From Paracoccaceae bacterium (GTDB lineage Bacteria > Pseudomonadota > Alphaproteobacteria > Rhodobacterales > Rhodobacteraceae), in assembly GCA_947468085.1 (NCBI GenBank), contig CANIKY010000008.1:1-47286 (forward strand): a stretch of DNA of 47,286 nucleotides, written 5' to 3'. Position 1 is the first letter of the stretch, and each line of letters opens with the position of its first letter. A model generated the notes under the pieces. That model was given only the letters and a program-made list of their open reading frames with translations. It did no database searches and was not told the origin of the DNA. Positions 22,057 through 29,367 of the stretch are shown here, piece by piece. Made by a program: the position numbers and the translations under genes.

Positions 22057-23037
22057 TCACTTGCCCCGCACCGGATAGGCCGCGCGAAAGACCCGAAAAG
22101 CCCCATCGCCGCCAACCTCCTCGACCTGCCGGAACAGCGCTTTAAGCATTGGCTCGTAGGGCAAGTGCCTGTTTGCCACCATCCACAGCACGCCATCCGG
22201 CGCAAGTCCACGGTGGGCTGCGCGGATAAAGGCCAGCCCAAGTGCCGGATCAGGCGCGCGCGCGGCGTGGAACGGCGGGTTCATCACCACGGCGTTCCAT
22301 GGGCGTTGGGGCGTGAATGTGGTGGCATCGGCCCAGTGAAACTCAGCCCTTGGGTTGGGCACATTCAGGCGGGCGCACTCCAGCGCCACCTTTTCCGCCT
22401 CGACCACATCCAACCGCTTGACGCCGGGGCGCTGAAGAATGGCGCGCGAAAGATAACCCCAGCCAGCGCCCAGATCCGCCACCCGTGCGGGCAAATCGGG
22501 CGGCAAGGCTGCGGCGAGCAGAAGCGAACCCTTATCCACGCCGTCGGCCGAAAAGACGCCAGGGCGCGTGATAAATCCATCAATCTGCCGGTCAACGGCC
22601 GGCCAAGCCGCAGGCACGGCAGCGGCGCTGAAGGATACAAACTTGCCATGGGCCTTCGAGATGACCTCACCCAACCCAAACCCCGCACCGCGCAAGTCTT
22701 TCAACGCACTGTCAAATCCGTCGGTTTTTTGCCCATCCACGGCGATCGACCCACCGACCCCCACCAAATCCACCGCCTGCGCCATCATCGCCCAAGCCTC
22801 AGCCCTTGCACGCGGCAGGCAAATCAAAGCTGCCGAGAAAGCTTTGCCCTCAACACGGTAACCAAGGGCAGCAAAATAATCTTGATCAGGGCGAAAACCC
22901 GTCAAAACCACCGTGCGCGACGCAGGCAAGGCCGACAGGTCATCTCCTGCGCGCGGGCGCATCACGGCAATGTCACCCGCAGGCGGCAAGGCCCAGGCCC
23001 CCGCGCGCAGGGCCATCTCTAAACGAACTGCTCTCAT
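22057..23037 (-). CDS. RsmC-like class I SAM-dependent methyltransferase
   Basis: 326-residue protein with an N-terminal pseudo-methyltransferase half (to about 150) and a C-terminal catalytic half, as in 16S rRNA G1207 methyltransferase RsmC. SAM motif VADLGAGWGYLSRAIL near 190 and the catalytic NPPFH near 255 are present. The ATG at 23037 gives MRAVRLEMALRAG. Before the mobile element inserted, this gene would have begun 16 bp after the clpS stop. Its native upstream region is now the left end of the element, which also creates a 16-codon upstream TTG extension (from 23085) whose use is doubtful. Confidence 0.85.
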   Translation of the reverse strand: MRAVRLEMALRAGAWALPPAGDIAVMRPRAGDDLSALPASRTVVLTGFRPDQDYFAALGYRVEGKAFSAALICLPRARAEAWAMMAQAVDLVGVGGSIAVDGQKTDGFDSALKDLRGAGFGLGEVISKAHGKFVSFSAAAVPAAWPAVDRQIDGFITRPGVFSADGVDKGSLLLAAALPPDLPARVADLGAGWGYLSRAILQRPGVKRLDVVEAEKVALECARLNVPNPRAEFHWADATTFTPQRPWNAVVMNPPFHAARAPDPALGLAFIRAAHRGLAPDGVLWMVANRHLPYEPMLKALFRQVEEVGGDGAFRVFRAAYPVRGK

Positions 23038-23055
23038 GATCACCGCGAAGCGGTC

Positions 23056-23065
23056 ATTCCTTTTC
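23056..23065. repeat. Left attachment repeat of the element
   Basis: ATTCCTTTTC, identical to 28924-28933. On the minus strand it reads GAAAAGGAAT followed by GA, which supplies the original TGA stop of clpS. The adjoining host sequence holds a small ACCGC/GCGGT hairpin. Confidence 0.8.
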
Positions 23066-23068
23066 AAT

Positions 23069-23096
23069 AAAACATATGTCTTCAACCATATGTTTT
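23069..23096. repeat. Palindrome just inside the left attachment repeat
   Basis: Perfect 10-bp arms AAAACATATG (23069-23078) and CATATGTTTT (23087-23096) around an 8-base loop, three bases inside the left repeat. It could be a binding site for the integrase or an excision factor, or a weak terminator at the element edge. The remaining 138 bases to the next gene hold one further hairpin. Confidence 0.55.
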
Positions 23097-23204
23097 TGCT
23101 GTGTTTTTTTGGTCTTTGTAACCAATTTGTAAATCACGAACCGCTAACTCGATTTCTCCACGACAACCTTTAACGCCAAACTTCAACTATTGCGAAGCGA
23201 AAGT

Positions 23205-23222
23205 GACGACATTTCTGTCGTC
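23205..23222 (-). terminator. Hairpin after the last minus-strand gene of the element
   Basis: Perfect 7-bp stem GACGACA/TGTCGTC with a four-base loop, 12 bp beyond the stop of the gene at 23235. There is no U-run on the minus strand, so it is at best an imperfect terminator or an RNA-stabilising end. Confidence 0.4.
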
Positions 23223-23234
23223 GCTGCTTAACAA

Positions 23235-23639
23235 TCATCCTGCCAATTTACTTGTTTTGGCTTTCTTCTTGTCATTCGACGCGACTGATATACGCTTTAT
23301 CTCTTCATCCGCCTCACCTGAAGCGATGTCGTCCGCCAACTCCAAACAACACTTCTTTACTTCATCTCTATCTGTCGTCGCGAAGTAGAGAGATTTTCCG
23401 CCGATCAATGTTGTCAAATAATGCACTGAAATCTTCGTTTCGCTTTCTCCAATCGAAGTGAAAGGTTTTCCCTTCCAACCCTCTTCTGAAAGATCGTTGT
23501 CGACCCACTTTTTTAGTCTATCTGCAATTTTTTTCCGCTCACTCTCAATCGACCACCCGCGACTCGACGATTGTTTCTTTGGTTTTTTTGGCTTTTCCGC
23601 CAACAAACCCCGACGCTTGATTACATCTGCCCATGCCAT
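23235..23639 (-). CDS. Hypothetical protein of the element, downstream of the serine recombinase
   Basis: 134 residues, highly charged and soluble. The N-terminus MAWADVIKRRG precedes a Lys/Pro/Ser-rich linker (EKPKKPKKQSSSRG), then a compact region of helices and strands (WSIESERKKIADRLKKW; ISVHYLTTLIGGKSLYF; DEVKKCCLELADDI) and a basic tail. I do not recognise the family. The ATG lies four bases past the stop of the serine recombinase, so the two are almost certainly co-translated; a role as recombination accessory factor is a reasonable guess only. Confidence 0.6.
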   Translation of the reverse strand: MAWADVIKRRGLLAEKPKKPKKQSSSRGWSIESERKKIADRLKKWVDNDLSEEGWKGKPFTSIGESETKISVHYLTTLIGGKSLYFATTDRDEVKKCCLELADDIASGEADEEIKRISVASNDKKKAKTSKLAG

Positions 23640-23643
23640 GTTG

Positions 23644-24201
23644 TCATCCCTCGTTGATTGACATCTCCAACGCACGATAAACTGACATTCTGCTGATCGT
23701 CAACATTTTCGCTATGTCTGACACGCCAACACCTTGCTTATGCATCGAAACGATCTTGTCGTCATCGACTGTTTTGACGCGACCCTTATAAACGCCTTTT
23801 GCCTTCGCTTTCGCGATACCTTCCAACTGTCGTGACTTGATCAATGACCGTTCAAATTCCGCAAATGCTCCCATCATCTGCAACTGCAAACGCGACATCG
23901 CGTCTTTGACATCATGCGAAAATGACAAACCTTCCGTCACAAACCGAACAGTGACACCCTTATCGTTTAACGTTTTGATGATATTTTGCAGATCTGCCAA
24001 ATTGCGCGCTAAACGATCAATGCTGTGAACGATAACCTCGTCCCCTTCCCTGACCCATTCGATCATGTCTGCCAACGCTTGCCGACCTGAAGTCGAACCA
24101 CCTGACACTTTGTCGACGAAAATCTTGTCCATCCCGTCCATCTGTTGACGATCCGTGTTCTGTTCGTCAGTCGACACTCTGATGTAACCAATCTTCGCCA
24201 T
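23644..24201 (-). CDS. Serine recombinase (resolvase/invertase family)
   Basis: 185 residues, the size of Pin/Tn3-type resolvases. The catalytic serine is S10 in YIRVSTDEQN; the supporting Arg residues lie in SIDRLARNLADL near 66-72. A long helix E follows (LQLQMMGAFAEFERSLIKSRQ), then the linker KAKGVYKGR and a C-terminal helix-turn-helix (ISRMSVYRALE). The ATG at 24201 has GGAG eight bases upstream. Possible jobs are resolving dimers made by rolling-circle replication, or inverting a segment; no inverted crossover pair was found. Four TGTCACA/TGTGAC boxes lie upstream. Confidence 0.93.
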   Translation of the reverse strand: MAKIGYIRVSTDEQNTDRQQMDGMDKIFVDKVSGGSTSGRQALADMIEWVREGDEVIVHSIDRLARNLADLQNIIKTLNDKGVTVRFVTEGLSFSHDVKDAMSRLQLQMMGAFAEFERSLIKSRQLEGIAKAKAKGVYKGRVKTVDDDKIVSMHKQGVGVSDIAKMLTISRMSVYRALEMSINEG

Positions 24202-24248
24202 CGTCTCGCTCCGCTGTAACATTTGCCTCTGTGATGTAAATGATAATA

Positions 24249-24343
24249 TGTCACAAATAAAAAAACACAACCATCTGTGACGATGATTATGTCGATCTTG
24301 TTCATTCTTCTGTTGTCACACACGAGTACTGTCTAATGTGACA
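24249..24343. promoter_or_regulatory. Cluster of four TGTCACA/TGTGAC(A) boxes upstream of the serine recombinase
   Basis: Half-sites in alternating orientation: TGTCACA 24249-24255, TGTGAC 24276-24281, TGTCACA 24314-24320, TGTGACA 24337-24343. They form two inverted pairs with centre distances of about 26 and 23 bp in the 159-bp gap before the recombinase gene. This could be its operator, the resolution (res) site it acts on, or both; res sites typically have several such inverted subsites. Confidence 0.5.
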
Positions 24344-24360
24344 CCGTTCGTGATGTTCGA

Positions 24361-24861
24361 TCACTCACCACAATTCTTGTAACCGCTGCTCATGCACTCC
24401 TGTGCCATCGCTTGTGCTTTTGCGATTTCTTCGCGTGTCATGTATTTTTCTAACAAGTCTCGCTGTTGACCGCCAAATAGCCCGCCGTTTGCTGAAGAAA
24501 TATTGAACCACATGTGTGCTTTCACATAATTTTGCTCAACTGTTTTGCCGATTTCATATGTAAGACCAAGAGTATCATAAGCGTTTGTCGCCCCATGTTC
24601 TGCTGCTTGGCGAAACCACCGCATTGCTTCTGCGTAATTTTTAGGAACACCTTCACCATCCTCATACATCGCCCCAAGTGACATCATAGCGCGCGAATCA
24701 CCCTTTTGTGCAGCATTCAAATAATTGATTAGTGCTGCTTTAAAATTACCCTGTTCAGCACTTTTTAGACCTTGCTCCCAATCCTGTGCGTTTGCACCTG
24801 ATACGCTCACCGCCAAAAGTGCTGAAAACGCCAAATACTTACAAGTGCATATGATAGTCAT
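24361..24861 (-). CDS. Secreted Sel1-repeat protein (copy A)
   Basis: 166 residues with a signal peptide (TCKYLAFSALLAVSVSGANA, cleavage before QDWE) and Sel1-like repeats: AAQKGDSRAMMSLGAMYEDG, then GVPKNYAEAMRWFRQAAEHG, then ATNAYDTLGLTYEIG and VEQNYVKAHMWFNISSANGG. Sel1 repeats are helical hairpins used for protein-protein contacts. The C-terminus (REEIAKAQAMAQECMSSGYKNCG) matches the next gene's end closely, including two cysteines. Tandem paralogue of copy B, 22 bp apart, probably one transcript. Likely cargo rather than a mobility function. Confidence 0.85.
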   Translation of the reverse strand: MTIICTCKYLAFSALLAVSVSGANAQDWEQGLKSAEQGNFKAALINYLNAAQKGDSRAMMSLGAMYEDGEGVPKNYAEAMRWFRQAAEHGATNAYDTLGLTYEIGKTVEQNYVKAHMWFNISSANGGLFGGQQRDLLEKYMTREEIAKAQAMAQECMSSGYKNCGE

Positions 24862-24883
24862 TTCCACTGCTTCCTATCCTCAC

Positions 24884-25348
24884 TCACCAACCGCAATCTT
24901 CATATCCGCTGTTAACACAGATCGTTGCCATTGCTTGCGCTTTCGAAACATCCTCAATCGTCATTTTCTCTGCAATAACATCTCGAGATTCACCTGCCAA
25001 CGCTATATTGAACCACATGTGTGCTCGAACATAATCTTGCATCACACCTCGACCATACTCATATATAAATCCAAGTCCAAACTGACCATCATGATTTCCC
25101 TGCATCGCTGACAATCGATACCATTTCATTGCTTCAACATAATCTTGTGCAACTCCATAACCATACTCATATAACATGCCAATTTGCGCTTGCGCTTTCG
25201 CATCACCTTGCACAGCTAATGGCATATCTTCTTTAAATAACGCCTGATATTCCGCCTGCGTCAATGAGCGCCATTCTGCATGTGTGCTTGTCCCTGATAC
25301 ACTGATAGCAAAAAGTGTCGAAAACGCTAAATACTTGAAAATTGTCAT
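24884..25348 (-). CDS. Secreted Sel1-repeat protein (copy B)
   Basis: 154 residues from the ATG at 25348, which has GGAG upstream; a farther ATG at 25378 lacks one. The signal peptide FKYLAFSTLFAISVSG mirrors copy A. Sel1 units include GDAKAQAQIGMLYEYGYGV, QDYVEAMKWYRLSAMQG and NHDGQFGLGFIYEYGRGV. The conserved C-terminal part ends EDVSKAQAMATICVNSGYEDCG. The two copies share layout end to end but differ in the region after the signal peptide, as expected for diverged duplicates exported to the periplasm or beyond. Confidence 0.85.
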   Translation of the reverse strand: MTIFKYLAFSTLFAISVSGTSTHAEWRSLTQAEYQALFKEDMPLAVQGDAKAQAQIGMLYEYGYGVAQDYVEAMKWYRLSAMQGNHDGQFGLGFIYEYGRGVMQDYVRAHMWFNIALAGESRDVIAEKMTIEDVSKAQAMATICVNSGYEDCGW

Positions 25349-25407
25349 ATCCGACGCTCCACTATTGCGCTTAACCAATCATATTCTGAAACTGCTGACC
25401 CGTCAAA

Positions 25408-25608
25408 CTAATGATTTTGTCCTGAATTTGAACCACTTGCCTTTCCCTGACCCTTGATCCTTGTCATCTCATCGCTGAATCGCTTCTTTGCCGCTGCTGC
25501 TTGTAATACCCGCTGCTGTGCTTGTTGTGCGTCCATGACCTTCTGCCGCGCTTGTGCTACCTGATCCTTGTGATCTGCTGCTTCGATGAACTGCTTGAAA
25601 CTGATCAT
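25408..25608 (-). CDS. Small hypothetical protein of the element (66 residues)
   Basis: Starts MISFKQFIEAADHKD and is rich in Gln, Ala and Lys, predicted helical and probably coiled-coil (QVAQARQKVMDAQQAQQRV), with a Gly/Ser/Asn tail. The ATG overlaps the TGA of the preceding small gene (ATGA), a strong sign that both are translated. The opening SFKQFIE recalls N-termini of small phage proteins, but that is a weak resemblance. No function assigned. Confidence 0.6.
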   Translation of the reverse strand: MISFKQFIEAADHKDQVAQARQKVMDAQQAQQRVLQAAAAKKRFSDEMTRIKGQGKASGSNSGQNH

Positions 25609-25793
25609 GACTGCACCACGATTACATCGACTGATCCACTTTTGCCGATGCATGCTTGAACGATTTTCGACACTTCTGCTGTGTCTGATTTCGACACCGA
25701 TTTGATGACAGTCACATCGCTGATTTTTGATGTGCTGATCTCTGCTACCAATGCGTTTTTTGTGATCTTCATTGTTGATATTTTGTTGAACAT
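25605..25793 (-). CDS. Small hypothetical protein of the element (62 residues)
   Basis: Sequence rich in Val, Ile, Ser and Lys (MFNKISTMKITKN then ALVAEISTSKISDVTVIKSV), suggesting a small alpha/beta domain, with one Cys (VQACIGKSG). The ATG at 25793 has GGGAGAG seven bases upstream; an internal ATG at 25772 has none. It is coupled to the next gene by ATGA overlap and heads the minus-strand run of small gene, small gene, Sel1 B and Sel1 A. Not recognised. Confidence 0.55.
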   Translation of the reverse strand: MFNKISTMKITKNALVAEISTSKISDVTVIKSVSKSDTAEVSKIVQACIGKSGSVDVIVVQS

Positions 25794-25856
25794 TATGCTC
25801 TCCCTATATGTGTTAATGATTGTATTTAATAGTATTCTGAATGTGTCGTTCAGTGT

Positions 25857-25912
25857 TACATTGTCATGTGATGTGTTGCTTTAAGATGTGATGTGTCCGC
25901 TGTGACAATGTA
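25857..25912. repeat. Inverted repeat enclosing direct repeats; candidate replication origin or operator
   Basis: Perfect 10-bp arms TACATTGTCA (25857-25866) and TGACAATGTA (25903-25912) enclose two identical TGTGATGTGT copies (25867-25876 and 25887-25896) spaced exactly 20 bp. It lies in the 216-bp gap between the rep stop and the next minus-strand genes. Such a structure next to a rolling-circle rep gene fits a double-strand origin with iterons; it could instead be the operator of the small-gene operon. The rest of the gap is AT-rich and shows no gene I trust. Confidence 0.5.
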
Positions 25913-26009
25913 TGCCCGCCGACGATAGAATTGATGACTTAAATAACTGATTTTATTGATATTTTTATCAAAACCCCTAACCCAAATCTGTTTGACGCGT
26001 GCAAACCCA

Positions 26010-27020
26010 TCAAACCCCGATTTCTCGATACAACGATCTCCAATTTGAACCCTGAACATCGCTGTATAACTTGACCAATCGACCCAAATCTTGCCGATCA
26101 ATCTCTTCACCACCCTTGTAATCTGAACCCGCAAATGTGTGCTTGTATCTTACAGCGTTCTTGAAATTGTATGATGTGATACCCGTTATGTTCTTTTCTA
26201 AACTTTTGCTCTTGTGAAACTCCTGAACAAACAAACCACTTTCCGCTGTCTTCTTAACACGCTCTTTGACACTGATCGTTTCGCCATTCTTCACCGTGTC
26301 ATATTCGACATGATACAAATCACCGACCATCCTTTCGATCTGATCCTTTGTTGCACAGAATATGCCATGCCAATGAACCCACAAAACATGACTGTCATCT
26401 TGCGACAACGAACCTTGCGTTCGTGCTTGTTTGATCATCTGCGCCAATGCTGCTTGCTTTTTTTCATCCTCATTCGAACGAAGCATAAATTCGAAATCTA
26501 TCAGTTCGAACTCATATGTTGCGATTCCCCAAATGCCTGATGATGCGTTTCTTTCTCGCATCTTACGCCATCTAATCTTATCTCGCTCGATTGCTTGACC
26601 CAAACTATCGATGTCGAACCGACACACTTCACAATGACCCGTCACATGAAGCAGATTGTCTGAAACGAATTTTTCATCATGATCTGATCCATACTTCGCT
26701 ACAATTTGCTTCTTAACTTTATTCTTGTATGTCTCTGCTGCATTGTTTCGACACGATTCACACCATATGCTTTGACACTTCTTTCCACGACCACAATTTT
26801 CGATCTTATCTGCCAAATCGTTGCATCCTATCGACAACAACGCTTTCTGAACTCGATCCTTAATAAATTTATACTCTTCTGCCAAATCGCTATAAAACTC
26901 TGACTTCCTCGTTTTATACGATTCTTCTAACAATGCTTCTTTGATGCGCTCGAAACTTGCTCGACGCTCGTCATCTGAAAATTGTTCCTTGAATGTCTTG
27001 ACCATCATCTTGCCTGTCAT
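26010..27020 (-). CDS. Rolling-circle replication initiator-like protein (HUH motif)
   Basis: 336 residues. A Cys cluster (C76, C82, C87, C90 in CGRGKKCQSIWCESC) resembles the zinc site of plasmid Rep proteins. A strand LLHVTGHC (about 123-130) stands where Rep motif 1 is expected. W215-H216-W-H218-G (WVHWHGIF) is an HUH metal-binding motif, and candidate nicking tyrosines are Y284 and Y292 (ITSYNFKNAVRYK). The spacing matches Rep_1-type initiators that nick one strand and attach covalently to its 5' end. Similarity to known Reps looks remote. It diverges from the small RHH operon. The start is uncertain; ATGs at 27020, 27008 and 27005 are possible. Confidence 0.72.
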   Translation of the reverse strand: MTGKMMVKTFKEQFSDDERRASFERIKEALLEESYKTRKSEFYSDLAEEYKFIKDRVQKALLSIGCNDLADKIENCGRGKKCQSIWCESCRNNAAETYKNKVKKQIVAKYGSDHDEKFVSDNLLHVTGHCEVCRFDIDSLGQAIERDKIRWRKMRERNASSGIWGIATYEFELIDFEFMLRSNEDEKKQAALAQMIKQARTQGSLSQDDSHVLWVHWHGIFCATKDQIERMVGDLYHVEYDTVKNGETISVKERVKKTAESGLFVQEFHKSKSLEKNITGITSYNFKNAVRYKHTFAGSDYKGGEEIDRQDLGRLVKLYSDVQGSNWRSLYREIGV

Positions 27021-27072
27021 TTTCGCTGTTTGATGTATTTATGAAATACATGATTGTATAAATATATTGAAC

Positions 27073-27255
27073 ATGTCCATAAGTAAGAGAACAAGAAACA
27101 TGAAAAATGACATAAATTCGCGTCTTGAACACATCGAAACCAACATCTCGATACTGTCCCAACAACTGCTCATCTTAAACGATGCGCTGACCGACCTCGA
27201 AACTAAATTTGAAATTCAATCAGTTCAGAAAGTTGACCATGAAAACATCGTATGA
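27073..27255 (+). CDS. Small coiled-coil protein of the element
   Basis: 60 residues from the ATG at 27073, or 51 from 27100. Heptad-like leucine/isoleucine spacing (IETNISILSQQLLILNDALTDLETKF) predicts a coiled coil. Divergent from rep with about 50 bp between the starts, and overlapping the next gene by 17 bp. It could be a partner of the downstream regulator or a replication accessory protein. Unrecognised. Confidence 0.5.
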   Translation: MSISKRTRNMKNDINSRLEHIETNISILSQQLLILNDALTDLETKFEIQSVQKVDHENIV

Positions 27256-27430
27256 CACCGAAACCCGCGCCATTCACTTGCTTCTACCCCGTGATCTCGT
27301 GTCTTCGCTCGACATGCATCGAAATCGCTATACCACCCGCACATCGCTCATTGCCCATGCCATCGAACGCTATGTTGCTTCGTTACCTGTCGTCGATGAT
27401 GCACCAAAACTGACATGGTCTGCTCGATGA
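27239..27430 (+). CDS. Ribbon-helix-helix (CopG-like) DNA-binding protein
   Basis: 63 residues. The strand AIHLLLPRDLVSSLDMH, followed by helix, turn and helix (TTRTSLIAHAIERYVASL), matches the ribbon-helix-helix fold used by CopG, Arc and ParG-type proteins. CopG-type repressors control rep expression in rolling-circle plasmids, and here the gene diverges from the rep-like gene, so autoregulation plus control of rep is the natural hypothesis. It begins within the coiled-coil gene and ends with an ATGA overlap with the next frame. Confidence 0.72.
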   Translation: MKTSYDTETRAIHLLLPRDLVSSLDMHRNRYTTRTSLIAHAIERYVASLPVVDDAPKLTWSAR

Positions 27431-27645
27431 TCGCTTTATATGACCGTAGACCCGTCAAAAACGCACGCACAACGATGATCATGCGTTTGCCGTTCCATGC
27501 CTATGCCATGCGCTTTTGTTCAGCGTATTACGATTCCGTCTTTCGATATGCTGAAATTCTTCATTGCCACAGACTTCGCCATCGCTTCGTCAAAGTGTCC
27601 ATAATGCTTTTCGATGAATCCGACGCTCGTTCCCGCAATCTTTGA
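27427..27645 (+). CDS. Possible small protein coupled to the RHH gene, overlapping the integrase end
   Basis: 72-residue frame whose ATG overlaps the stop of the RHH gene (ATGA at 27427-27430), which favours translation. The last 126 bp run antisense over the 3' end of the integrase gene, which argues that at least that part is a shadow. The first third (MIALYDRRPVKNARTTMIMRL) is outside any other gene. No recognisable domain. Doubtful. Confidence 0.3.
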   Translation: MIALYDRRPVKNARTTMIMRLPFHAYAMRFCSAYYDSVFRYAEILHCHRLRHRFVKVSIMLFDESDARSRNL

Positions 27646-28770
27646 AATTTCGTAAATCGACGCGCCCGCTTTCAATCGACATGTAATGCCAAAATGTCGA
27701 AGCGAATACCATGTGATGTTTTCCGCTTCGTAATCAAGACCGATGCCTTTCATCAATTCTGACCATGCCGAATAGTAGTGTCTCAAATTGAATCGTTCTG
27801 CACCCGTTTTACCGCAAAATATGTAATCTGTGCTTTCTTTGAACTTCACTCGTTCGAATAGTCTTTGAAAATATTCGCCGCCTCTTGCCGTGACATTTCG
27901 GGTTTTTCTGTTTTTTGATGTCTCTGCCTTAACGCGCAGCGTGACCAACTCAACATCGTTCCAACCATCCTGCTTCATCGTTTCGAACTTTTCGATGTCG
28001 CCCCACTTCAATTGCCACAACTCGCCAACCCGCAACATTGTGTTACTTGCTATCAAAATGCAGTCTCGAATCAGCAAACGCTTGTTTCGAAGTTCTTCGT
28101 CATCCCCACACTGTGCTTTTGAAGACCATGTTCGCATGAACCTTACTAATTCATCATATTGTTCCAAAGTGAATGTTCCGCGTCTACCGTCATCATCTTC
28201 TTCTGTTCTTATTCGTAGCTTTCGAAATTCAAACTGTGTGAAATGACTATGTCCTTCGCGAAATGCGAACTTCATCATGTGATTTATAGTCGTCTGTTCG
28301 TTTCGAATTGTGATGTCGCGAACTTCTTCATGCCTCAAACGTCGCCAATTTGCGTAATCGAATGCACTTTTCATATCGAAACTTGCTACTTTTGATGTCG
28401 CACCTGCAAATGCGACAAAGTGCTTTAACTGCGAACTTAATGTGACATGGCGTCCCGCTGTGATGTTTTTCGTCTCCACATCTTCCTTGCGCCACTGCAA
28501 ATATTCGATGACAAGTTGCTGAATTGTAAGACCAAATATCTTTTTCCCGTTCTGAACCTGCGCCAATGTCTCAATGACTGTCTGCTCTGCGCGTTGCTTC
28601 GCTTCCGTCAAATTTTCCGTCCGCAACGATTTCCGCATGTACCGATTTTCGCTCGATACCCACATCCGTAACTGATAGCGCTTGCCCGACTGTGTTGTCC
28701 GCAAAACTGTTGCTTTGCCGCCCAATATGTCATGCTGCTCAACGATGAATGCGTTTTCTGTCTTTGCCAT
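27520..28770 (-). CDS. Tyrosine integrase of the element
   Basis: Catalyses integration and excision of the element at clpS. 416 residues from the ATG with GGGGA upstream. An arm-binding/core-binding N-terminal half leads to a catalytic half with R247 (MLRVGELWQL), a likely Lys near 286, R358 and H359 (WYSLRHFGIT, where the usual first His is Tyr) and the nucleophile Y390 in FIEKHYGHFD. The GTS...IEKHYGH ending is common in phage and island integrases. It lies 151 bp from the right attachment repeat and reads away from it, the standard position for an integrase at an element end. Confidence 0.94.
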   Translation of the reverse strand: MAKTENAFIVEQHDILGGKATVLRTTQSGKRYQLRMWVSSENRYMRKSLRTENLTEAKQRAEQTVIETLAQVQNGKKIFGLTIQQLVIEYLQWRKEDVETKNITAGRHVTLSSQLKHFVAFAGATSKVASFDMKSAFDYANWRRLRHEEVRDITIRNEQTTINHMMKFAFREGHSHFTQFEFRKLRIRTEEDDDGRRGTFTLEQYDELVRFMRTWSSKAQCGDDEELRNKRLLIRDCILIASNTMLRVGELWQLKWGDIEKFETMKQDGWNDVELVTLRVKAETSKNRKTRNVTARGGEYFQRLFERVKFKESTDYIFCGKTGAERFNLRHYYSAWSELMKGIGLDYEAENITWYSLRHFGITCRLKAGASIYEISKIAGTSVGFIEKHYGHFDEAMAKSVAMKNFSISKDGIVIR

Positions 28771-28818
28771 GTCTGCGATCCCCACTTCGTGCGTCAGAAA
28801 AGCACACAAAGTTTGTAA

Positions 28819-28831
28819 GTGTCTTTGACAC
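28819..28831. promoter_or_regulatory. Small palindrome in the integrase upstream region
   Basis: GTGTC-TTT-GACAC, a perfect 5-bp inverted repeat 49 bp upstream of the integrase start, between the gene and the right attachment repeat. It shares the GACA core with the boxes ahead of the serine recombinase. It may be an operator or an arm site. Confidence 0.3.
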
Positions 28832-28921
28832 AATGATCGCTAACGTAGTGATTTTCAACCGTTTTTGTCTCGTCTTTGAAATATAAAAATCGTTCAAAAA
28901 CAAGTAATTATGTGAAAATTT

Positions 28922-29245
28922 CTATTCCTTTTCCATCGTGCATTGCAGCGGATGCTGATGCCTACGGGCAAAGTCCATCACTTGCGCCACTTTGGTCTCG
29001 GCAACCTCGGCCGAAAACACCCCAACCACCGCCAGCCCTTTTTTATGCACCGTCAGCATAATTTCGAACGCTTGCGCGTGGTTCAGGCCAAAGAACCGCT
29101 CTAACACATGCACGACGAATTCCATCGGCGTGAAGTCATCGTTCAAAAGCATCACCTTGTACAAAGGTGGGCGTTCGGTTTTCGTCTTGGTCTTGGTCAG
29201 AACCGAAGTGTCCTGACCCGGGCCCTTAGGGCCGTCAGACATCAT
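28922..29245 (-). CDS. clpS: ATP-dependent Clp protease adaptor ClpS
   Basis: N-end-rule adaptor that binds ClpA and delivers substrates with destabilising N-terminal residues to ClpAP. 107 residues from the ATG at 29245 (a TTG at 29263 is also in frame). Core features are [24 protein letters not shown] with the NDD and F/M binding pocket, then [12 protein letters not shown] and [11 protein letters not shown]. The end [10 protein letters not shown] is encoded within the right attachment repeat of the mobile element; the present TAG stop comes from element DNA. No clpA gene follows, since the element and then the methyltransferase gene lie downstream. Confidence 0.94.
28924..28933. repeat. Right attachment repeat of the element, inside clpS
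   Basis: Second copy of ATTCCTTTTC; on the minus strand GAAAAGGAAT encodes the last Glu-Lys-Glu of ClpS. Element DNA adds AG to complete a TAG stop. Confidence 0.8.
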
Positions 29246-29367
29246 GTCAGGAAAAGAGGTCAAACCAGAGCTCCGGTGCGAAAGGGGGGCGTGTTGCTTA
29301 TCGAAACATTATAGACGATTTTGCGGCCCATGAAAGGCCCCCACCGCCTTTGCTGCAGGAGAAGTCT

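Follow-up and report, generated by a model that had tools for sequence, protein, structure and literature searches.

A small element at the 3' end of clpS with an integrase of a guaA-site clade: a probable case of site-specific integration at a new target

Introduction

How does an integrase whose relatives insert after the last codon of guaA come to stand at the end of clpS? The question is raised by a 47,286-bp stretch of DNA from a Paracoccaceae bacterium (contig CANIKY010000008.1 of assembly GCA_947468085.1; this whole stretch is hereafter called the window), in which an insert of 5.9 kb lies between clpS and a methyltransferase gene. To our knowledge, the way in which site-specific integrases change their target is an open question. 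This locus brings together integrases that are related but stand at two target genes, a host lineage in which the old target is altered, and a short likeness that possibly explains the new choice, so that retargeting can be tested with the enzymes and sites that nature provides. The interpretation that we consider probable is that of a small integrative element at clpS, which carries an integrase of the guaA-site clade and resides in a genus where the guaA core is broken and two lineages of that clade are found at clpS.

The element borders and the empty site

The original prediction, made from the letters of the window, held that an integrated element uses the end of clpS as its attachment site and is flanked by a 10-bp repeat. 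This repeat, ATTCCTTTTC, occurs within the window only at the two borders (2 found, 0.09 expected, and 0 of 100 shuffles reaching 2). On the minus strand, the right copy was correctly read as the clpS end GAA AAG GAA followed by TAG, with the T in the repeat and the AG supplied by the element, and the left copy as leading into TGA (T in the repeat), then 16 nucleotides (nt) and the ATG of the methyltransferase. The announced size stands as that of a repeat-bounded insert, with the correction that the exact unit is 5,868 bp, since the span 23056-28933 counts both repeat copies. The abrupt change of composition is likewise real, as the G+C fraction is 0.433 in the insert, 0.616 in the 5 kb to the left and 0.594 in the 5 kb to the right. 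The excised junction had been foreseen with TGA as the stop and the same protein end, and the joined flanks indeed correspond to the empty site of a genome of the same genus, G015, to which they align over 795/795 columns, ungapped, at 90.6% identity. An empty site devoid of the repeat had been named as a ground for giving up the idea; the core, GAAAAGGAAT, is present in both G015 and G004. In the whole 3.22-Mb assembly ATTCCTTTTC occurs 4 times, the remaining two on contigs C61 and C62, and a reversed control pattern is equally frequent (4), which means that by itself the 10-mer is not unusual for this genome and that it is its placing that counts. The insert shares with site-specific integrative elements of the tyrosine integrase type the direct repeats of the core at its two ends, the uninterrupted empty site of a relative, and a tyrosine recombinase with an open frame adjoining one border. 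In the gap between clpS and the methyltransferase, a short hairpin (CCGC..GCGG; window 23042-23054) was also seen, the stem of which is kept and the loop variable in G015, G004 and G005.

The clpS-methyltransferase pair and repeated occupation of the site

The methyltransferase is usually positioned just downstream of clpS. Among the named loci of the family, which are the 80 best out of 538 and from which the family name Rhodobacteraceae is taken, the distance is at most 200 bp in 77 and amounts to 201 and 305 bp in two more, which have no integrase match, so that the pair lies within 305 bp in 79/80; the remaining locus, L102, shows no methyltransferase match within its 2.9 kb of sequence. 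ClpS was found in 52 genomes and the loci of 30 were examined, comprising 14 from the genus and 16 from elsewhere in the family, in all 16 of which the pair is adjacent. In 20 near genomes, chosen from among the ClpS matches listed, the gaps measure 13-204 bp. These genome sets overlap, some genomes being in more than one. Within the genus (16 genomes, clpS found in 14), the pair is adjacent in 11/14, and the contiguous arrangement on which the prediction depended is thus the rule among relatives. The prediction had also proposed a search for other insertions at clpS, and such insertions exist, the pair being interrupted in 3/14 genomes, namely that of the window, G013 and G005. A fourth is probably G010, visible from the methyltransferase side only; in G008 neither clpS nor the methyltransferase was found. 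The clpS end is therefore a recurrent insertion site in this genus.

The other inserts differ from that of the window. In G013, clpS runs into a different integrase, split in two reading frames, and the methyltransferase is on another contig; the repeats of the insert are degenerate (GAAAAAGAGT vs TAAAGGAAT). In G005, 1.9 kb without a match to the window integrase separate the two genes and encode a 474-aa (amino-acid) protein with a peptidoglycan-binding domain (L037:4979-6403), for which PADLOC gave two weak matches only (E 0.005 and 0.006); here too the repeats are degenerate, GAATAAC being common to both. The methyltransferase side of G010 begins with GAAAAGGAATAG, an element-like junction, preceded by a 39-aa protein start with a resolvase-domain match (E 1.2e-4, 22.7 bits vs a cut-off of 23.3). 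The last part of the G005 cargo gene has a 79% identical counterpart of 188 bp in the DNA close to the methyltransferase of G013. L238 (G653) has a clpS ending in GGAAAAGGAATGA and a second GGAAAAGGAAT 18 nt later, ahead of the methyltransferase, which may be what an earlier insertion at this site left behind. The clpS-methyltransferase gaps of L078, L079 and L244 measure 201-305 bp, and those of L078 and L079 share a palindrome-like stretch (CGGGCGATTTCTGACGCAGAAATCGCGG).

Relationship of the integrase to guaA-site integrases

In 394 family genomes, 18 contain a match to the window integrase at E 1e-15 or better, its own genome included. Besides the own copy, four copies stand out, one each in G594 and G123 and two in G612, all with E values of 9e-45 or lower; after them the best value is 1e-28. 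Three of these four follow the stop of guaA, which encodes guanosine monophosphate (GMP) synthase (NCBIfam 1.8e-230), at GAGTGGGAGTAG; the fourth (in G612, locus L043/L066, the latter being G612:C24) follows AAGTGGGAGTAG without guaA upstream, and represents either a secondary site or a remnant. A further 19 rows of the search (best E 1e-28) have no assigned site, except for three more distant integrases, outside the clade, beside tRNA genes. A clade profile run against 318 class genomes hit 6 (E 1e-35 or better), again with the own genome included, and all five other copies follow guaA; among 380 order genomes it found G000 and G123 only. The nearest relative, in G966 (47% identity over 319 aa), is also located at guaA. 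Altogether, 8 of the nine clade copies outside the genus stand after the last guaA codon and the ninth after a guaA-like core elsewhere, while the site of the window element is clpS. Second core copies were read in two of nine loci (G870 and G808), bounding units of ~5.3 and ~7.2 kb. The own guaA of the window's genome has no insert of this kind in the 80 nt 3' of the gene, and its core is altered.

Candidate arm-type sites, whose binding by the integrase is presumed, are shared with these relatives. The site 53 nt from the core on the integrase side is found at that distance in the window, in G013 and in five guaA-type loci (L065, L066, L067, L068 and L204; 51 in L066 by a shorter core string), and at +63 in L201 and +65 in L202; the pattern was found neither in L200 and L203 nor on the attR side of G013. 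On the other side, sites stand at -66 in both the window and G870 (L201), and at -77 in G808 (L204). In the window a more restrictive version of the motif has three occurrences, all inside the element, where 0.05 would be expected; it was derived from these very sites, and hence the equal distances are the fairer evidence.

Two probably separate arrivals at clpS

Phylogenetic trees place the window integrase inside the guaA-site clade, on branches with support of 100/99 and 98/97. In a tree of 15 rows, with five more distant integrases as outgroups, it groups with the guaA-site integrases of G966 and G870 (91/88, 82/83), and the integrase of G013 groups with those of G594, G123, G612, G808 and G047 (100/100). 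The two pieces of the G013 integrase share 50-54% identity with the guaA integrases of their own subclade and 33-40% with the integrase of the window. Forcing the window and G013 integrases together makes the tree 94.9 log units worse (p of the approximately unbiased test, p-AU, 1.7e-28), and 68.1 units worse (p-AU 3e-5) when the partial rows L043, L180 and L183 are left out and the G013 piece is kept. The trees were computed without L059 and the N-terminal piece of G013, and these constraint tests were run after the integrase identities and a first tree, which carried long-branch warnings, were known. As judged from these sequences, the clpS-site integrases are two separate lineages of the guaA-site clade, and, since they occupy different places among guaA-site integrases, at least two moves to clpS would be required.

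The altered guaA core and the likeness between the guaA and clpS ends

In the genus, guaA ends in TIELE in all 14 readable genomes of the 16 (G008 lacks the gene end and G010 gave no match), the TGG codon of the core being replaced by CTG, CTC or TTG. This Trp-to-Leu codon change lies within the published guaA core, GAGTGGGA. Outside the genus, 24 genomes were picked by hand, 18 from the ClpS list and 6 by closeness of their ClpS; 22 are readable (G449 gave no match and in G036 the end is missing), and 17 of these end in TIEWE, four in TIELE (G512, G106, G677, G620) and one in TIEME (G025). Loss of the guaA core thus reaches beyond the genus, and occupation of clpS is seen in the genus only.

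The coding ends of guaA (ACGATTGAGTGGGAG) and clpS (ACGATGGAAAAGGAA) agree at 10/15 positions, or at 9 when the guaA of G612 is taken. Among 352 gene ends drawn from 400 kb of the own genome, none is as close to guaA over 15 nt, a length of the analyst's choice; the nearest differs at 7 positions and clpS at 5 or 6. Over 18 nt, 0 to 2 of the 352 are as close, depending on the guaA used. A 16-nt pattern spanning both gene ends is matched twice in the own genome, at clpS and on C118, and its control has no match, which proves little, as ~0.8 matches are expected. The clpS end of G013 has GAG in place of the GAA of near relatives, a difference that would agree with a half-core of guaA type carried in by the element; GAG is also found in the unoccupied genus members G014 and G001.

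Proposed course of events and alternative explanations

In the sequence of events that we propose, the tyrosine integrase would recombine the 10-bp core of the element with its identical counterpart at the clpS end. With the new stop brought by the element, TAG replacing TGA, ClpS is left unchanged, and the methyltransferase, still on the same strand, is displaced downstream by 5.9 kb. The clade to which the integrase belongs is otherwise located after the last guaA codon (core GAGTGGGART); the Trp-to-Leu codon change disrupts this core in the genus, and two lineages of the clade are found at the clpS 3' end, which resembles that of guaA. The integrase is presumably active and the element may excise, and loss of the guaA core may have come first and favoured the switch. 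The strongest form of this account, in which a single Trp-to-Leu residue change near the C-terminus of GuaA closed a widespread gateway and guaA-clade integrases twice independently moved to the look-alike clpS, is tentative, and we doubt it somewhat more than we trust it.

Several observations weigh against the proposed account. The closeness of the two gene ends depends on length, since over 12 nt 10 of the 352 sampled ends are as close. In the four genomes of other genera whose guaA ends in TIELE, clpS and the methyltransferase are adjacent and the site is empty, so that losing the guaA core does not by itself suffice. Of the 80 named family loci, 46 have a clpS core that fits GARWRGGART, and clpS was thus available to the clade elsewhere. 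Clade members stand at clpS in 2/2 cases in the genus and 0/8 elsewhere, with a Fisher p of 0.022 that ignores relatedness and excludes the L043 copy. The placing of the window integrase beside G966 and G870 is only moderately supported; only two clpS-site integrases are known, one of them in two reading frames and represented in the trees by its C-terminal piece. In addition, a circular form was looked for in viral contigs by the 27-mer of its attP and not found.

If the element were an ordinary site-specific one at clpS, its kinship with guaA integrases and the guaA codon change would be coincidental. That new target genes should turn up is to be expected, as protein-coding sequences harbour 43.4% of the genomic islands mapped, according to the excerpt of PMC12424338, and the empty clpS sites of the four TIELE genomes also agree with coincidence. 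Such a reading predicts less than is seen, namely two guaA-clade lineages at one new site, only in a genus without the guaA core, with a clpS end closer to guaA than any of the 352 sampled, and we consider it unlikely. That clpS was the ancestral target and guaA the derived one is suggested by a family-only tree, in which both clpS integrases branch outside the guaA group; class-wide members overturn this hint, since they place guaA integrases outside and beside both clpS ones and more changes would be needed, which makes this order of events very improbable. The assembly consists of 196 contigs and may be a metagenome bin, which would leave room for a chimera, or else for homologous insertion in place of site-specific recombination. 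Against either stand the exact core repeats at both ends, the arm-type sites at the distances seen in relatives, the predicted empty site in G015, and the start of other inserts in G013 and G005 right at the stop of clpS, so that we give this explanation hardly any credence.

Gene content and type of the element

The features of the element and of its flanks are collected in Table 1. All open reading frames (ORFs) of the element, except two small ones, are codirectional with clpS and the methyltransferase, and on this arrangement the insert need not silence the methyltransferase. Promoter-like matches in the window are at the level of chance (12 found vs 11.6 expected; terminator-like, 8 vs 4.9), and we therefore make no claim on expression of the methyltransferase. 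Scans of the window for Rfam families and tRNA genes were empty, and PADLOC returned no match for six element proteins. Relatives of the serine recombinase occur at the G612 locus (42%; nearby, with the core between it and the integrase) and inside the G870 element (47% over 70 aa). The paired, paralogous Sel1-repeat genes at 24361-25378, both with signal-peptide-like starts as judged by eye, appear as cargo. With Cys pairs and an HWH motif that, by eye, recall those of HUH replication proteins, the 336-aa orphan may, tentatively, be one of this type; the support for this is the match at E 0.059, and a plasmid-like replicating stage is thus a guess. Searches of order genomes (390), viral contigs, phages and plasmids brought up nothing but the protein itself, the PDB gave no credible relative, and a single-sequence structure model (predicted local distance difference test, pLDDT, 33.6) was left unused.

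Table 1. Features of the element and its flanks (positions in the window).
Feature	Position	Strand	Evidence
methyltransferase, MTS domain, RsmC/RlmG-like	22057..23037	-	Pfam MTS 8.3e-42; NCBIfam RsmC 3.3e-21, under equivalog cut-off
attR core repeat, then GA of TGA stop and methyltransferase	23056..23065	-	repeat search; empty-site comparison
putative arm-type double site TACAAATTGGTTACAAA, 66 nt from core	23115..23131	-	equal distance in G870 guaA element
146-aa ORF	23235..23675	-	no significant family
small serine recombinase (resolvase/invertase)	23644..24201	-	Pfam Resolvase 3e-37
Sel1-repeat protein, signal-peptide-like start (by eye)	24361..24867	-	Pfam Sel1 1.1e-15
second Sel1-repeat protein, paralogous	24884..25378	-	Pfam Sel1 1.7e-16; DNA repeats D1, D2
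81-aa ORF	25408..25653	-	no significant family
62-aa ORF	25605..25793	-	no match
orphan protein, 336 aa, Cys pairs and HWH motif (by eye)	26010..27020	-	weak REP-tyrosine-transposase match, E 0.059, under cut-off
62-aa coiled-coil-like ORF (by eye)	27067..27255	+	weak; best IcmG/DotF, E 0.0007, 19.4 bits vs cut-off 200
73-aa ribbon-helix-helix-like ORF (by eye)	27209..27430	+	weak BrnA antitoxin match, E 0.029, under cut-off
tyrosine recombinase (integrase), guaA-site clade, adjoins attL	27520..28785	-	Pfam PF00589 2e-10; PHROG integrase 4.4e-27; trees; start codon uncertain
putative arm-type double site TTCAAAGACGAGACAAA, 53 nt from core	28864..28880	-	also at 53 nt in G013 and in guaA-type elements
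clpS, TTG start, 113 codons, TAG stop	28922..29263	-	Pfam ClpS 8.3e-35; NCBIfam ClpS 1.3e-45, above cut-off
attL core repeat, last clpS codons (GAA AAG GAA T)	28924..28933	-	exact copy of 23056-23065; G015 empty site

Two familiar types of mobile element were considered and set aside. No relaxase or mating-pore gene was found among 10 element proteins (8 in a further scan; origins of transfer, oriT, lay outside the search), and the conjugation-type matches are weak coiled-coil ones only (IcmG/DotF and TraP), far under the cut-off; by these scans the element does not qualify as an integrative and conjugative element (ICE). A prophage was likewise rejected, as capsid, terminase and tail genes gave weak matches only (scaffold 0.029; head-tail adaptor 0.057; terminase 0.018, through the helix-turn-helix part of the resolvase). 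The DNA of the element matches no phage, and among plasmids it matches in the resolvase gene only (12 records); the integrase has no match in viral contigs, nor in plasmids at 1e-10.

Comparison with known elements

No clpS attachment site was seen among the papers listed by searches of the open-licence PMC literature; one of these papers, PMC3390384, concerns cyclic lipopeptides. Integrative elements are known at guaA. GIsul2 is reported to be inserted at 5'-GAGTGGGA-3', and its own integrase is reported to excise and integrate it (PMC9376610, in excerpt), and ICERspD18B is listed as an integrative element of the guaA 3' end (PMC7775301). With GIsul2 the clade of the window integrase shares the combination of an integrase and an element at the guaA 3' end, and resG is on the GIsul2 map in the same excerpt; the clade is alphaproteobacterial and uses the same guaA position, a likeness of site and not of compared integrase sequences. 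Unlike GIsul2, the window element is at clpS, has the core GAAAAGGAAT and measures 5.9 kb. The streptococcal ICEs resemble it in that their tyrosine integrases use the 3' ends of guaA and other housekeeping genes, with flanking direct repeats (PMC4701971); clpS is not among their targets in the portion of PMC4701971 consulted, and the window element is without recognised conjugation genes. Excision of ICEBs1 is impaired at secondary sites, as stated in the excerpt of PMC3715440, whereas the cores of the window element match exactly, as if adapted to clpS. What is new relative to the known guaA elements is an apparent retargeting from guaA to clpS, which, if true, would amount to an experiment of natural evolution in which integrases changed their target and the two states can both still be read.

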